DNA of 64,000 nt from the NCBI RefSeq assembly GCF_001202035.1, contig NZ_LGHT01000025.1, forward strand, positions 1 through 64,000, written 5' to 3'. The DNA is from Pseudorhodobacter wandonensis. Its GTDB lineage: Bacteria > Pseudomonadota > Alphaproteobacteria > Rhodobacterales > Rhodobacteraceae. Positions 4,167 to 33,774 of the stretch are shown here, piece after piece. Below the pieces are notes generated by a model. It searched no databases. It had not been told where the DNA came from and was given only the letters and a program-made list of their open reading frames with translations. The position numbers were made by a program, and so were the translations under genes. The stretch's first letter is position 1. Each line of letters opens with the position of its first letter.

Positions 4167-6824
4167 ATGCCATCGCTTAACGACATCCGTTCAACCTTTC
4201 TTGACTATTTCAACCGCAACGGCCACCGAGTTGTGGACAGCAGCCCCTTGGTGCCGCGCAATGACCCAACGCTAATGTTCGCCAACTCGGGCATGGTGCA
4301 ATTCAAGAACTGCTTTACGGGGGTCGAGCAGCGAGACTATGTCCGTGCCACGACCGCGCAGAAATGTGTGCGCGCAGGCGGCAAGCACAATGACCTCGAT
4401 AACGTCGGCTATACCGCGCGTCACCACACCTTCTTTGAAATGCTCGGCAACTTCAGCTTTGGTGATTATTTCAAGTCGGATGCCATTCCCTTTGCCTGGG
4501 AGCTGCTGACCCGTGATTTCGACATTCCCAAAGACAAGCTGTTGGTGACCGTCTATCACAATGATGATGAGGCGGCGAACCTTTGGAAAAAGGTCGCAGG
4601 ATTGCCAGATGATCGCATTATTCGCATTGCGACCGATGATAACTTCTGGCGCATGGGGCCGACCGGCCCTTGTGGTCCTTGCACCGAGATCTTTTTTGAT
4701 CATGGCGATAAAATCTGGGGCGGCCCTCCTGGCTCGGCCGATGAAGATGGTGACCGGTTCATTGAAATCTGGAACCTTGTTTTCATGCAAAACGAACAGC
4801 ATGCCGATGGCAGTCTGACACCGCTTCCTAAACAAAGCATTGATACCGGCATGGGGCTGGAGCGGATTGGCGCCTTGCTGCAAGGCAAGCATGACAACTA
4901 CGACACCGACCTGATGCGCAGCCTGATTGAGGCCTCGGCCCATGCGACCAGCAGCGATCCGGATGGCCCCGGCAAAACCCATCACCGCGTGATCGCCGAT
5001 CATCTGCGTTCGACTTCGTTCCTGATCGCCGATGGTGTGATGCCCTCGAATGAAGGTCGCGGTTACGTATTGCGTCGGATCATGCGTCGCGCGATGCGGC
5101 ATGCCCACCAACTTGGCGCGCAAGATCCTGTGATGCACCGCTTGGTACCGGCTTTGGTGCGCCAGATGGGCGCGGCCTATCCCGAACTTAGCCGTGCCCA
5201 AGCGATGATCGAAGAAACCCTTCGGCTGGAAGAGACCCGTTTCCGCCAGACGCTGGACCGCGGTTTGAAGCTGCTGGATGATGAACTTTCTAAAATACCC
5301 GAGGGCGCAAACTTGCCAGGGGCTGCTGCCTTCAAACTGTATGACACTTACGGTTTTCCGCTGGATCTGACCCAAGATGCGCTGCGTGAAAAAGGCCGCG
5401 CAGTGGACACAACCGGTTTTGAAGCCGCGATGGCCGAGCAAAAGGCCAAGGCGCGGGCAAGCTGGTCCGGCTCGGGTGAAACCAAGGATGCCGCGATTTG
5501 GTTCGATCTGGCCGAGGCACATGGCGCGACCGAGTTCTTGGGTTATGACACCGAGACAGCCGAAGGGCAGGTACTTGCCTTGGTAGCCTCAGGCGCTGAG
5601 ACCGATAAGGCGGGCAAGGGCGATGCTGTCCAAATCATCTTGAACCAGACGCCGTTTTATGCGGAATCCGGTGGCCAGGTTGGCGATGAGGGCGTCTTGA
5701 CTACCCCGACGGGTAAGGCGCGGATCACCGACACCAAAAAGGGGCAGGGGCTGTTTATTCACATGGCCGAGGTAACCGAAGGTACGATTTCCAAGGGCCA
5801 AGGTGCGGGTTTGACGGTTGATCATGGCCGCCGCGCCGCCATTCGCGCCAACCATTCGGCAACCCATTTGCTGCATGAAGCGCTGCGTCGGGCCTTGGGC
5901 GACCATGTTGCACAGCGCGGATCGTTGAACGCACCCGACCGTTTGCGCTTTGATTTCAGCCACGGTCAGGGGCTTTCGGCCGCCGAACTGGCGCAGGTTG
6001 AGGCCGAAGTGAACGCCTATATCCGCCAGAACGGTGTGGTCGACACCCGTATCATGACGCCGGATGATGCCCGCGGACTGGGCGCGCAGGCCTTATTTGG
6101 CGAGAAATACGGCGATGAAGTGCGCGTGGTTTCCATGGGTGTGCTGGATGGCTCGGGTAAGGGCGCAGATGGCAAGACCTATAGTTTGGAACTGTGCGGC
6201 GGCACACATGTGGGCCGTTTGGGCGAGATCGGGCTGTTCGTTCTGCTTGGGGATTCCGCCTCTTCGGCGGGCGTTCGCCGGATTGAGGCGCTGACCGGCG
6301 AAGGTGCGCTGACCTATCTGAAAGAGCAGCTTGGCTGCCTTGCCGATGTTTCGGCAGTGCTGAAAACGGCGCCGGCAGAGCTTGCGGGTCGTGCTAAATC
6401 TTTGCTGGAGGAACGCCGCAAGCTGGAGAACGAGGTCGCTCAATTGCGGCGTGAGCTGGCGATGGGGGGCTCGGCCGCGGGGCCGGAAGCAAAGGAAATC
6501 AACGGCGTCAAATTGATCGCGCAGGTGTTGACCGGTGTGTCCGGCAAGGATTTGCCGGGGCTGATTGATGAGATGAAGGCGCGGATCGGGTCTGGCGCGG
6601 TGCTGTTGATTGCCGATACCGGGGCCAAGCCTGCGGTGGCGGCGGGTGTGACCGAGGATATGACAGGTTCGGTTTCGGCCGTTGATCTGGTCAAGGCGGC
6701 GGCGGCGGCTTTGGGTGGCAAGGGCGGCGGCGGGCGGCCTGATATGGCGCAGGCCGGCGGCATGGATATTGCAGGCGCCGAGGCGGCAATCGCGGCCGTT
6801 GAAGCCATTATTGGAGGGAAATAA
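4167..6824 (+). CDS. alaS: Alanyl-tRNA synthetase
   Basis: 885 residues, the normal length for bacterial AlaRS. The N-terminal class II catalytic core contains [15 protein letters not shown] and the motif [15 protein letters not shown]. The editing domain shows the zinc-binding set [11 protein letters not shown] and, later, LCGGTHV. The C-terminal region carries a coiled-coil-like segment and a DHHA1-type end rich in Gly/Ala. It charges tRNA-Ala and hydrolyses Ser/Gly mischarged tRNA. It is followed after one base by a DUF1330 gene, probably cotranscribed up to the terminator at 7159. Confidence 0.98.
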
Positions 6825-6825
6825 C

Positions 6826-7125
6826 ATGCCGACAGCTCTTTGGATTGCCCATGTCGAGGTCACGGACCCCGAAGCTTATGGAAAATATGCGACCCTTGCC
6901 GGCCCTGCGATTGCCGCGCATGGGGGCGTTTTTCTGGCCCGCGGCGGGCGCTATGTTCAGCTGGAAGGCAAGGACCGGCCCCGCAATGTTGTGGCCCGTT
7001 TTCCCAGCCTTGAGGCGGGTGTGGCCTGCTATAATTCGGCCGAGTATCAGGCGGCGCTGGCCCATGCAAAGGGCGCGAGCATCCGTGACCTGATGGTGCT
7101 GGAAGAGGCCGAAACGCCTGCGTGA
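6826..7125 (+). CDS. DUF1330 family protein
   Basis: A 99-residue ferredoxin-like-fold protein starting MPTALWIAHVEVTDPEAYGKY, with RGGRYVQLEGKDRPRNVVARFPS in the middle and YQAALAHAKGAS near the end; these are hallmarks of DUF1330. Function is unknown; the fold is related to dimeric alpha-beta barrel proteins. The ATG was chosen because it lies two bases after the alaS stop and has GGAGG upstream. An upstream in-frame extension inside alaS is not credible. Probably the second gene of an alaS transcript. Confidence 0.85.
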   Translation: MPTALWIAHVEVTDPEAYGKYATLAGPAIAAHGGVFLARGGRYVQLEGKDRPRNVVARFPSLEAGVACYNSAEYQAALAHAKGASIRDLMVLEEAETPA

Positions 7126-7158
7126 CCGCGCGCGGACGTTTTCCTAACCTATTGATAT

Positions 7159-7200
7159 AAGGGGTAAAGATGAAAATTCTTTACCCCTTGTTAACTTTTT
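7159..7200 (+). terminator. Terminator after alaS-DUF1330
   Basis: AAGGGGTAAAG (7159-7169) and CTTTACCCCTT (7179-7189) form a perfect 11-bp stem with a 9-nt loop, followed by gttaactttttg. The U-tract is displaced a few bases but the hairpin is convincing. Confidence 0.75.
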
Positions 7201-15383: not shown

Positions 15384-15453
15384 AGGGGGCGCTCGCGCCC
15401 CCTCTTGGCCTTGGGGCCAATTCACCCCCTGAGGATATTTTTGGATAGATGAT
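15384..15453 (+). repeat. Dispersed three-part intergenic element, copy B
   Basis: Hairpin 1 is AGGGGGCG/CGCCCCCT (15384-15403). Hairpin 2 is TTGGCC/GGCCAA (15405-15420). The tail runs CCCCCTGAGGATATTTTTGG then ATAGATGAT (15425-15453). It sits between iscR and the first desulfurase gene, immediately before that gene's start, so it is inside the suf transcript. Confidence 0.75.
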
Positions 15454-30385: not shown

Positions 30386-30502
30386 TGGCAGGCTCCTTGG
30401 TTCGGGTGCGGGTCTTATGGCCCTATTGCCCTAAGGATGCACGGCGCGGGCGGGCATAACAAGCTGCTTGGCCTGTGGGCGCGGCTGTGTTAGGGAATCT
30501 GC

Positions 30503-30547
30503 ATGAAAATATCAGGCATCATTTGCATTTGCTGCATTACCTGCTGA
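30503..30547 (+). CDS. Cysteine-rich leader peptide of cysS
   Basis: A 14-codon ORF encodes [14 protein letters not shown]. Four of 14 codons are TGC (Cys), and the last precedes TGA. AGGGA lies six bases before the ATG, an excellent ribosome site. It is too short to be a catalogued gene, but composition and position (110 bp before cysteinyl-tRNA synthetase) fit a regulatory leader peptide. Its last codons form the left arm of the hairpin at 30540. A ribosome waiting for Cys-tRNA would cover that arm. Confidence 0.75.
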
Positions 30548-30609
30548 CATAAGTCGGGCGGGCCTGTTTTCTTTTCGTTTCCAAACAAAGACGAAGTTGA
30601 TATGCCCGC
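30540..30609 (+). promoter_or_regulatory. Candidate transcription attenuator between Cys leader and cysS
   Basis: Terminator form: CCTGCTGAC (30540-30548), loop ATAA, GTCGGGCGGG (30553-30562), nine pairs including two G-U and one bulged G, followed by tgttttctttt (30565-30575). Competing form: GCGGGC (30558-30563) pairs perfectly with GCCCGC (30604-30609), which breaks the terminator. The left arm overlaps the last Cys codon and stop of the leader peptide. The arrangement predicts readthrough into cysS when Cys-tRNA is scarce. Pairings were found by eye; energies were not computed. Confidence 0.6.
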
Positions 30610-30656
30610 GCCAGAAGGCCGAGGAAATGCTGCGACTGCTGCACAAGGGTAGGGAT

Positions 30657-32048
30657 ATGACCACAATCAAACTGCACAATTCCAAGACGCGGGAAAAAGA
30701 GGTTTTCACGCCGATTGACCCCGAAAATGTGCGGATCTATCTCTGCGGTCCGACGGTCTATGATCGCGCCCATATTGGCAACGCGCGCAATGTGATCATG
30801 TTTGATGTGTTGTTTCGGCTGCTGCGGCAGGTTTACGGGCTGGATCACGTGACCTATGTGCGCAATTTCACCGATGTAGATGACAAGATTAACGCCGAGG
30901 CGCTGCGCCGCCAGAATGCGGGCGAGGCGGGAACGCTGGAGGAATTGATCCATCAGCGGACCGAGGAAACGATTGCCTGGTATCACGCCGATATGGATGC
31001 GCTTGGCAATCTGCGCCCGACCCAAGAGCCGCGCGCGACCGAGTATATCGGCCAGATGATCGCGATGACCGAGGATTTGATCGCCAAGGGCCATGCCTAT
31101 GCGGCCGAGGGGCATGTGCTGTTTGATGTGCGCTCTTTCCCTGAATACGGCCGGCTTTCGGGGCGGTCGGTTGATGATATGATCGCCGGCGCGCGTGTTG
31201 AGGTGGCGCCTTATAAGCGCGACCCGATGGATTTTGTGTTGTGGAAGCCGTCGGATGATGTGACGCCCGGTTGGGATAGCCCTTGGGGCCGTGGGCGGCC
31301 GGGGTGGCATATTGAATGCTCGGCCATGTCGCAGGCGCTTTTGGGGCCGTCGTTCGATATTCACGGCGGCGGCACGGATTTGACCTTTCCGCACCATGAA
31401 AACGAGCTGGCGCAAAGCTGCTGCGCTAACCCCGACGAGGGGTTTGCCAATGTCTGGCTGCACAATGAGATGTTGCAGGTCGAGGGCAAGAAGATGTCCA
31501 AGTCGCTGGGCAATTTCTTTACGGTGCGGGATTTGCTGGATCAGGGGATTGCGGGCGAGGTGATCAGGTTTGTGTTTTTGCAAACCCATTACCGCAAGAC
31601 GATGGACTGGACGGCGGAAAAGGCGGCGCAAGCCGAAGCGACATTGCGCAAGTGGCGCGGGTTTGTGGAGGGCATTGAGCCCGCCCCAAACCCGTTGGGA
31701 CCGGTGATCGATGCCTTGGCCGATGACCTTAACACAGCGGGGGCCTTGGCGGCATTGCATGAGGCAGCAGGGCAGGGCGACTATGCCGGGCTTTTGGCCT
31801 CGGCCCGTGTGATGGGGTTGTTGGAGGATGGTATGGGCGATTGGCTGGCTGCGGTTGATCTGAGTGGCTATGCCGAGAAACTGGCCATGGTTTGGGCGGC
31901 GGCGAAGCTGTCAAAGGATTTCACAGCCGTGGATGCGATGAAGGCCGCGCTGATTGCGGCCGGTGTCGAGATTCAGATGGGCAAGGATGGGGTTGTGTTG
32001 CAACCCGGTGCCGGGTTTGATGCGGGCAGGTTGGAGGCTTTCGAGTGA
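30657..32048 (+). CDS. cysS: Cysteinyl-tRNA synthetase
   Basis: 463 residues, class I synthetase that charges tRNA-Cys. Zinc ligands include Cys30 in YLCGPTVYD, a Cys in ECSAM and the His/Glu in PHHENE. HIGN is at residues 39-42 and KMSKS at 279-283. The start [14 protein letters not shown] follows GGGTAGGGAT; a frame from 30597 adds 20 residues that lack family similarity and overlap the proposed antiterminator. Regulation by the Cys leader is proposed. Followed by a dispersed repeat and cimA. Confidence 0.97.
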
Positions 32049-32067: not shown

Positions 32068-32143
32068 GGGGGGCTGTCTGCCCCCCCTGTTGCTTTGCAA
32101 GGCAAAGCAACACCCCCGAGGATATTTGTGCCGAACAGAAAGC
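32068..32143 (+). repeat. Dispersed three-part intergenic element, copy D
   Basis: Hairpin 1 is GGGGGGC/GCCCCCC (32068-32086). Hairpin 2 is TGTTGCTTTGC/GCAAAGCAACA (32088-32112, perfect 11 bp, 3-nt loop). The tail is CCCCCGAGGATATTTGTGCC followed by GAACAGAAAG. It lies between cysS and cimA on the same strand. A run-through ORF across it ending at the cimA start is regarded as fortuitous. Confidence 0.75.
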
Positions 32144-32160: not shown

Positions 32161-33774
32161 ATGAGAGGGCGGCTGTATTTGTTTGATACCACGCTTCGTG
32201 ACGGGCAGCAGACCCAAGGCGTGCAGTTTTCGACGCTGGAAAAAGTGCAGATTGCGCGGGCGCTGGATGCTTTGGGCATTGATTATATCGAAGGCGGCTG
32301 GCCGGGGGCGAACCCGACGGATAGCGAGTTTTTTGCAGATCGGCCTGAAACCCGCGCCACGATGACGGCGTTTGGGATGACCAAGCGGGTCGGGCGGTCA
32401 GCCGAGAATGATGATGTTCTGGCAGCTGTGTTGGATGCGGACACGCCCGCCGTGTGCCTTGTGGGCAAAACGCATGAGTTTCATGTGACCACGGCGCTTG
32501 GGGTGACGCTGGAGGAAAACCGTGAGGCGATTGCAGCGTCATTTGCGCATGTGGTGGCCAAGGGCCGCGAGGCCTTGTTCGATGCCGAGCATTTCTTTGA
32601 CGGCTACCGTGCCAATCCCAGCTATGCCTTGGATTGTTTGCGGGCGGCCTATGAGGCGGGCGCGCGTTGGATTGTGCTGTGTGATACCAACGGTGGCACT
32701 TTGCCTGCCGAGGTAGGGCGTATCACGGCCGAGGTGATTGCGGCGGGGATACCGGGCGATCATCTGGCTATTCATTGCCATGATGATACGGGCAATGCTG
32801 TGGCCTGTTCTTTGGCCGCCATTGATGCGGGCGCGCGGCAAATTCAGGGCACCTTGAACGGTTTGGGCGAGCGTTGTGGCAATGCGAATCTCGTGACGCT
32901 GATTCCGACGTTGCTGTTGAAAGAGCCCTATGCCAGCCGGTTTGAAACCGGTGTCAGCCCCGAGGCATTGGCGGGGCTGCTGCGCACCAGCCGGATGTTG
33001 GATGATATTTTGAACCGCGTGCCGTCGCGGGGGGCGGCCTATGTCGGGGCCTCGGCCTTTGCGCATAAGGCGGGGTTGCATGCCTCTGCGATTTTGAAAG
33101 ACCCCACGACCTATGAGCATATCCCCCCCGAAGTGGTGGGCAACGCGCGGATTATTCCGATGTCGAACCAGGCGGGGCAATCGAACCTGCGGGCGCGGCT
33201 GGCGGCGGCCGGGATCGAGGTTGCGCCAAAGGACCCGCGCCTTGCCGATATTCTTGACCAGATCAAACAGCGCGAGGATCAAGGCTATGCCTATGACGGG
33301 GCGCAAGCCAGTTTCGAGTTGCTGGCGCGGCGCTCCTTGGGCCTTTGCCCGCAGTTCTTTGAGGTAAAGCGCTATCGCGTCACGGTGGAACGCCGCAAGA
33401 ACAAGCGTGACCAGATGATCACCCTGTCCGAAGCGGTGGTGGTGGTGAAAATCGGCGATCAAAAGATGTTGTCGGTGTCGGAATCAATGGATGAAAGTGG
33501 CACTGACCGTGGGCCCGTGAACGCGTTATGGAAGGCCTTGGCCAAGGATTTGGGGCCGTATCAGGCCTATATCGACGATATGCATCTTGTAGATTTCAAG
33601 GTGCGGATTACCCAAGGCGGCACCGAAGCCGTGACGCGGGTGATTATTGACAGCGAGGATGCGCAGGGGCGGCGTTGGTCGACCGTGGGGGTCAGCGCAA
33701 ACATAGTCGATGCAAGCTTTGAGGCGTTGTTGGATGCCGTGAACTGGAAGCTGATACGGGATGGCGCGGCATGA
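32161..33774 (+). CDS. cimA: (R)-citramalate synthase
   Basis: 537 residues, the LeuA/CimA family: condenses pyruvate with acetyl-CoA to citramalate, a threonine-independent route to isoleucine. The catalytic barrel has FDTTLRDGQQTQGVQF (metal and substrate ligands), CDTNGGTLP and the metal-binding HCHDDTGNAVA, then LNGLGERCGNANL. The C-terminal regulatory domain (about 400-537) ends VGVSANIVDASFEALLDAVNWKL, as in CimA; leucine-type feedback by isoleucine is typical but not shown. A proposed short overlap exists with the next gene's upstream sequence. Confidence 0.93.
   Translation: MRGRLYLFDTTLRDGQQTQGVQFSTLEKVQIARALDALGIDYIEGGWPGANPTDSEFFADRPETRATMTAFGMTKRVGRSAENDDVLAAVLDADTPAVCLVGKTHEFHVTTALGVTLEENREAIAASFAHVVAKGREALFDAEHFFDGYRANPSYALDCLRAAYEAGARWIVLCDTNGGTLPAEVGRITAEVIAAGIPGDHLAIHCHDDTGNAVACSLAAIDAGARQIQGTLNGLGERCGNANLVTLIPTLLLKEPYASRFETGVSPEALAGLLRTSRMLDDILNRVPSRGAAYVGASAFAHKAGLHASAILKDPTTYEHIPPEVVGNARIIPMSNQAGQSNLRARLAAAGIEVAPKDPRLADILDQIKQREDQGYAYDGAQASFELLARRSLGLCPQFFEVKRYRVTVERRKNKRDQMITLSEAVVVVKIGDQKMLSVSESMDESGTDRGPVNALWKALAKDLGPYQAYIDDMHLVDFKVRITQGGTEAVTRVIIDSEDAQGRRWSTVGVSANIVDASFEALLDAVNWKLIRDGAA

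Follow-up and report, generated by a model that had tools for sequence, protein, structure and literature searches.

The window analysed here, a stretch of 64,000 nucleotides from Pseudorhodobacter wandonensis (contig NZ_LGHT01000025.1), carries cysS, the gene for cysteinyl-tRNA synthetase, and downstream of it on the same strand cimA, the gene for citramalate synthase, an enzyme of isoleucine synthesis (Table 1). The cysS product, counted from the ATG at 30657, has 463 aa and is 88% identical to its nearest named relative, that of Pseudorhodobacter ferrugineus. Ahead of cysS lies a leader ORF of 14 codons, which begins with the ATG at 30503, encodes cysteine at residues 8, 10, 11, and 14, and ends with the TGA at 30545–30547; the word AGGGA is found 5′ of its ATG, at 30492–30496. 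Arms A and B can form a terminator-like stem (30540–30548 with 30553–30562) that has one bulged base and its loop at 30549–30552. A sequence-only reading had noticed the leader, this hairpin, the U-rich tail after it and the possible pairing of GCGGGC with GCCCGC, and took them for an attenuator of cysS that responds to cysteine. When the sequence was rechecked, all its letters and coordinates for these features were found to be correct. A small Ala-rich ORF of 16 aa (30602–30652, ATG to TAG) starts inside the −10-like box of the P2 element and ends four bases 5′ of the cysS ATG. NCBI places Pseudorhodobacter in Paracoccaceae, Rhodobacterales; the family is called Rhodobacteraceae in this analysis.

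Table 1. Features of the cysS-cimA region of P. wandonensis, with positions in the window.
Feature	Position	Strand	Basis
P1 −35 box, TTGGCC (putative)	30468..30473	+	TTG(G/A)C-like block about −37 to −32 from the leader ATG, 122 leaders
P1 −10 box, TAGGGA, contains AGGGA (putative)	30491..30496	+	TA at −15..−10 in 117/122 leaders
Leader ORF, probably leaderless	30503..30547	+	Conserved ORF, promoter geometry, C at −1 in 86% of 122 leaders
Arm A, left terminator-like arm: last Cys codon and stop	30540..30548	+	A:B hairpin, −10.8 kcal/mol
Arm B, right terminator-like arm	30553..30562	+	Pairs with arm A
GCGGGC, part of B able to pair with C	30558..30563	+	RNAalifold and column test
U-rich tail TGTTTTCTTTT of the putative terminator	30565..30575	+	Sequence
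P2 −35-like box, TTTCCA	30578..30583	+	Two T's at 98–99% of 85 TGnTA leader loci, 17 bases 5′ of TA
P2 extended −10-like box, TG-A-TATGCC	30598..30606	+	TGnTA in leader and leader-free loci
Arm C, GCCCGC, putative antiterminator arm pairing with B; shares bases with the P2 −10-like box	30604..30609	+	CCCGC kept in leader loci
cysS, cysteinyl-tRNA synthetase	30657..32048	+	TIGR00435, 411.7 bits (cut-off 340)
cimA, citramalate synthase (isoleucine synthesis)	32161..33774	+	TIGR00977, 570 bits (cut-off 450)

Conservation of the Leader ORF

The comparison was based on 222 usable regions upstream of cysS, 140 of them assigned to the family according to their source or record title, including two (L037 and L042) titled Alphaproteobacteria only. 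Three rows with a short upstream (L018, L056, L097) and five duplicates (L001, L112, L032, L203, L118) were dropped. A fixed filter accepted ORFs of 9–22 aa that start with ATG, contain at least two Cys and have their stop 50–175 bases 5′ of cysS. It was passed by 110 of the 140 family upstreams, compared with a mean of 5.5 and a maximum of 12 in 20 runs of dinucleotide shuffling, and with 9 of 140 on the reverse strand. The expectation of the sequence-only reading that an alignment of Rhodobacteraceae upstreams would reveal a retained short ORF with at least two Cys codons is thus borne out. It is the relatives that settle that the leader is more than chance, since the window alone is not decisive. 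Among them, the leader peptide drifts except for its Cys and Ile residues.

When one Cys was allowed and a composite score was applied, leaders were found in 122 of the 140 family upstreams. The score yielded 139 leaders altogether; of the 17 from elsewhere 13 were used, L094, L210, L216, and L227 being excluded by judgement. The composite score awarded one point for an upstream TA, and the promoter counts given below were redone on the 110 leaders picked without TA.

A covariance model was built from leaders of 13–14 aa with at least two Cys. Four loci with extra G/C-rich complementary letters between arms A and B, by eye an inserted hairpin (L022, L116, L124, L153), were excluded from its input, and 40 of 45 drawn sequences entered it after L008, L024, L049, L082, and L117 had been removed by hand (arm C missing or end uncertain). 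In the genome of P. wandonensis the model finds one convincing site (E 2.8e-25; next best 0.62). It matches 253 of 296 family genomes, with one genome taken per genus, and the sites in G184, G015, G074, G103, and G137, compared by eye, lie directly 5′ of cysS. Within the genus Pseudorhodobacter the leader is present in six of nine genomes; the other three keep cysS-cimA intact. Five genomes (G130, G158, G571, G631, G682) have two matches each, the second of which could mark another regulated gene.

Promoter and Start of the Leader

Upstream of the 122 leader ATGs, TA stands at about −13 to −11 and a −35-like block precedes it. The two boxes occur together in 104 of the 122 leaders and at 0.9% of random positions in the same DNA. 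Among the 110 leaders selected by Cys content alone, TA falls within −15 to −10 in 106 and both boxes are present in 95; the 13 non-family leaders have the same promoter layout. Shine-Dalgarno-like 4-mers are no more common than background in front of the leaders (12 of 122 vs. 9% at random positions), whereas in a slightly wider stretch 5′ of cysS itself they occur in 102 of 122 loci.

The sequence-only reading gave the letters and position of AGGGA correctly and took the word for a ribosome-binding site. Given the promoter boxes together with the background level of Shine-Dalgarno words, AGGGA is much more likely to be part of the −10 box of P1, and its reading as a Shine-Dalgarno sequence was rejected. 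The leader is therefore probably leaderless, and its transcript is predicted to start with, or right beside, the first base of the ATG. From such a transcript the ribosome would load without a Shine-Dalgarno sequence.

Alternative Hairpins

The sequence-only reading also expected covarying hairpin arms. This holds for B:C, whereas in A:B covariation is slight apart from a single pair. At the outer B:C pair standard pairing is found in 80 of the 122 leaders (shuffle mean 51, maximum 66) by way of C-G/G-C swaps, and the inner pairs are nearly invariant. Matched changes are seen in L143 (CGCGGAC/GTCCGCG), L141 (AGCGGGC/GCCCGCT), and L184 (CCCGGGC/GCCCGGG). A Watson-Crick match of at least seven between B and C occurs in 57% of the 122 leaders vs. 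9% with C shuffled. RNAalifold, run on 40 sequences, recovers B:C as the only pairing, without A:B, and two of its pairs show double compensatory changes; at the outer B:C pair these were observed in 12 of the 40 sequences. The A:B pairing itself persists, with standard pairs in 545 of 610 cells of the upper part and 328 of 430 of the lower part, and its one covarying pair, which adjoins the loop, is standard in 79 of 94 cases (shuffle mean 60, maximum 69). The left strand, arm A, is also coding. In the arm-swap test the cognate combination beats the swap mean in 91 of the 122 family leaders for A:B and, weakly, in 69 for B:C; the 13 non-family leaders reveal no cognate preference (6 of 13 and 7 of 13, respectively).

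Folding of the window sequence alone gives a less clear-cut picture. For 30490–30580 the z-score is −0.76, and 40 of 200 shuffles equal or surpass the native fold; for 30490–30680 it is −1.94, and 7 of 200 do so. A simple scan of the window, which considered stems without a bulge and the E. coli promoter consensus, found neither a promoter nor a terminator. The computed energies are −10.8 kcal/mol for A:B alone and −23.3 kcal/mol for B:C. When the bases under the assumed footprint of a ribosome stalled at Cys10-Cys11 or Ile12 are masked, arm A included, the terminator hairpin is lost (from −11.7 to −3.0 kcal/mol), and B pairs with C. Naked RNA from the window that extends to 30625 already has B:C as its best fold, and RNA ending at 30576 favours a more extensive structure that includes the 5′ half of the ORF (−20.3) over the plain A:B hairpin, so termination would need A:B to be formed before C is made. 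The putative terminator and antiterminator are thus mutually exclusive in sequence and predicted fold, B:C being well supported and the A:B terminator less so.

A Second Promoter-Like Element

Another promoter-like element, P2, follows the U-rich tail, and its −10-like box shares bases with arm C (Table 1). Its TGnTA motif occurs in 85 of 122 loci that have a leader and in 13 of 18 that have none (12–13% in shuffled sequence; Fisher p 1.0). The CCCGC of arm C, in contrast, is present in 108 of 122 and 7 of 18, respectively (15–17% in shuffled sequence; Fisher p = 1e-5). Loss of the leader therefore mostly takes the antiterminator arm and mostly leaves the P2-like part. The proposal that B:C is a mere by-product of a promoter overlapping arm C was rejected as the whole answer, since C is lost with the leader more than P2 is. 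If active, P2 would dilute the control exerted by the attenuator.

Isoleucine Codons and Linkage to cimA

The sequence-only reading described the leader as Cys-rich, and the enrichment in Cys stands, but the commonest residue and the downstream cimA were overlooked. Across the 122 family leaders Ile makes up 29% of residues and Cys 22.5%; across the 13 non-family leaders the values are 31% and 14%, respectively. The Ile codons of the family leaders comprise 251 ATT, 194 ATC, and 3 ATA, as against 31 codons for Leu and 12 for Val. Only in the leader ORF's own frame is Ile among the nine commonest residues. The 110 leaders selected by Cys alone have 29.7% Ile, compared with 2.5% in Cys-selected ORFs from shuffled DNA, a control with no filter on stop distance, and contain in total 28 Leu, 10 Val, and 7 Phe residues. 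Numbered back from the stop, Cys occupies codon −4 in 85 and codon −5 in 81 of the 122 leaders, and codon −3 is Ile in 111. It is written ATT in 105 of these 111, which suggests that part of the Ile signal may reside at the RNA level. At −7 and −8 Ile is encoded by both ATT and ATC (44/33 and 23/48, respectively), which points to conservation of the amino acid rather than of the letters.

In the family, 70 of the 71 loci with enough sequence have cimA 3′ of cysS and in the same orientation, 69 further loci being too short. The two genes overlap or lie within 5 bases in 17 cases and are within 200 bases of each other in 64, the largest gap being 595 bases. The exception, L033 (Falsigemmobacter intermedius), has no cimA within 3 kb 3′ of cysS; its cimA is elsewhere, and the locus has no leader. 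All 63 checkable leader-bearing family loci have cimA downstream, as do at least 12 of the 13 leader-bearing non-family loci. For the latter the distance is 18–2419 bases in L057, L058, L072, L073, L075, L089, and L229 and, by coordinates and on the same strand, about 2.9–3.2 kb in L068, L071, L077, L079, and L109, where contig identity was inferred from adjoining coordinates for L077 and L109; L107 is the thirteenth locus. The arrangement is also found in 7 leader-free family loci and in 20 of 65 other leader-free loci, so the two genes can be linked without a leader. No Ile-rich short ORF was detected in the 330 bases upstream of the unlinked cimA of L231.

In the window, the gap between cysS and cimA is 112 bases and contains a strong G/C hairpin belonging to a repeat family, a possible obstacle to the coupling of the two genes there. 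The hairpin, with its G6/C6 stem and CCCCCGAGGATATTTGTG, occupies 32068–32130. The pattern CCCCCGAGGATATTTNTG, an intergenic repeat family, has 49 copies in the genome at up to two mismatches (0 in the control), including two more in the window at 15426 and 59114.

Distribution beyond the Family

A Cys/Ile leader is present in 12 of 19 Hyphomicrobiales records with usable upstream DNA and absent from 7. The order was looked up for five taxa, and the remaining records we take from their genus names to belong to it. An example, MKTVICIICRKIIR, is found in Rhizobium leguminosarum and Ensifer. The hairpin letters differ from those of the family, typically reading GCTAGC...GCTGG(C), and the stop in the left arm is TAG in 11 of the 12, as compared to TGA in 113 of the 122 family leaders. 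In Rhizobium and Mesorhizobium about 3 kb separate cysS from cimA, with other genes in this interval in R. leguminosarum. By eye, positions 4376–7191 of the R. leguminosarum locus L068 encode a DUF559-like protein, three similar GFA-like proteins, and a proline iminopeptidase-like protein, after which cimA follows.

Under stricter filters the covariance model matches 8 of 387 genomes of the class, 6 of them in the family of P. wandonensis, its own genome included. The match in another family, L255, has the leader MSNAHTIFICPIICR 5′ of cysS. L256 has no cysS in the locus and by eye resembles the beginning of a longer gene. With a lax ORF filter 18 of 90 loci were flagged, most of them belonging to other families of Alphaproteobacteria. 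L229, L257, and L258, all from one order, and L255 were judged to be real leaders, and L210 perhaps so. Such a leader was thus absent from most of the alphaproteobacterial families that these surveys sampled.

Relation to Known Attenuators

The sequence-only reading stated that no such attenuator was known for cysS in Alphaproteobacteria. This claim to novelty falls, because the motif uORFC-8-2, described in 2021 from 145 examples, all of them in Rhodobacterales, had already been presented in the passages devoted to it as a predicted cysS attenuator sensing Cys (PMC8632094). The locus studied here lies likewise directly 5′ of cysS in Rhodobacterales and shares with uORFC-8-2, as described in those passages, an AUG-initiated uORF with tandem Cys codons, a 3′ U-run, and proposed attenuation. 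According to the same passages uORFC-8-2 has two stems, the first of which contains the Cys codons; in the window the last Cys codon and the stop fall in arm A. The tandem Cys codons of the motif are usually at positions 14 and 15, here at 10 and 11 (PMC8632094). The words isoleucine, leaderless, and cimA are absent from the main text of that paper, and its passages on the motif mention no promoter (PMC8632094). A probable leaderless start, the Ile codons with the linkage to cimA, and the putative P2 with the predicted Hyphomicrobiales leaders would go beyond the published prediction. In the open literature, as judged from titles and the opening of abstracts, no report of dual control of cysS and cimA was found. 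At the locus no Rfam 15 family scores above its gathering threshold; there is one sub-threshold match, to an unrelated lncRNA region.

As in the classical his, thr, leu, ilv, and trp attenuators, leader codons for the amino acid presumed to be regulated stand beside a putative terminator and antiterminator that exclude each other. Unlike those systems, a Cys and Ile pair would connect a tRNA synthetase to a biosynthetic enzyme unrelated to it, without a Shine-Dalgarno sequence. Leaders of the two-amino-acid type exist; that of thrL contains Thr and Ile codons. The leader of Caulobacter ilvBN is described, in the part of the source consulted, as having Ile and Val codons (PMC4117421). P. wandonensis itself has an ilv attenuator: its ilvB leader (L241, contig C25 of the genome, about 152.5 kb) consists of the ORF MNNLVVVILIRRMGR followed by a G/C hairpin with a T-run and, unlike the cysS leader, has an SD start, with SD-like GAAGGG 5′ of its ATGs.

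Two leaderless systems are closer in layout. The trpL leader of Sinorhizobium meliloti, translated from the attenuator RNA rnTrpL, is also 14 aa long, and the RNA starts with AUG, a feature that is predicted for the cysS leader; it is a Trp leader of trpE, and roles in trans have been reported for it, in the passages seen of that work (PMC10117765). The Cys-rich uORFs of mycobacteria, for which attenuation has been proposed, precede cysA2 and other genes and likewise have leaderless mRNA and Cys codons at the C-terminal end; they belong to other genes in another phylum, and the passages on them describe neither a hairpin pair nor Ile enrichment (PMC4633059).

Proposed Mechanism and Alternative Explanations

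We consider it fairly likely that a ribosome-mediated transcription attenuator is at work in this region, responding to charged tRNA-Cys and charged tRNA-Ile and governing cysS and, by way of cysS, cimA, the two genes being co-transcribed. The transcript from P1 would begin at or next to the leader AUG. With Cys- and Ile-tRNA plentiful, the ribosome would finish the leader and leave, A would pair with B, and transcription would stop at the U-rich tail. With either of them scarce, the ribosome would stall on Cys or Ile codons just 5′ of arm A and mask it, B:C would pair, and the polymerase would continue into cysS-cimA. P2, located 3′ of the terminator, may provide a basal, unattenuated supply. 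The attenuator of the sequence-only reading agrees with the comparative data on the ORF and on B:C covariation; its start signal was misread and its isoleucine part overlooked. As a generalization, a leaderless Cys and Ile sensor coupling cysS with the entry enzyme of isoleucine synthesis, across the family and, with different hairpin letters, in Hyphomicrobiales, appears somewhat more probable than not, judging from the comparative data.

It is rather doubtful that the attenuator responds to Cys only, as published, the Ile codons being kept for reasons of RNA or pacing, as codons that are AU-rich, free of structure and rapidly read ahead of the arm. This explanation has in its favour that only Cys matches the first gene, cysS, that the published text on uORFC-8-2, in its motif passages, names only Cys (PMC8632094), and that codon −3 is nearly always ATT. 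However, the leaders contain few Leu, Val, and Phe codons even though these are similarly composed, Ile at −7 and −8 is written both ways, and the gene linked to cysS is cimA.

Improbable, in our estimate, is a short attenuated RNA or peptide as the product that matters, acting in trans like rnTrpL/peTrpL of S. meliloti, with or without attenuation in cis. The layout is similar to that leaderless AUG-start attenuator RNA of an alphaproteobacterium, as far as described in the passages seen (PMC10117765, PMC7298713), and through P2, cysS could be expressed largely without the help of P1; against this, the peptide drifts apart from its Cys and Ile, B and C covary with each other, and the single convincing site in the genome is 5′ of cysS. 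We regard it as very improbable that attenuation is absent altogether and that the region is a promoter region with conserved P1, P2, and start signals in which the hairpins are incidental. The frequent survival of P2 without the leader, the weak folding of the window sequence and the negative terminator scan fit such a region, but the conserved Cys/Ile frame and the covarying B:C would need another reason, and arm C is mostly lost along with the leader.

Should the dual Cys and Ile attenuator prove true, it would be new in tying a tRNA synthetase gene to the biosynthetic gene of another amino acid by means of a leader free of a Shine-Dalgarno sequence, and it would explain why cysS and cimA remain together. 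The natural losses of the leader within one genus offer ready-made controls. Three Pseudorhodobacter genomes without the leader ORF (L007, L009, L012) keep both cysS-cimA and the P2-like element and can be viewed as natural deletion mutants.
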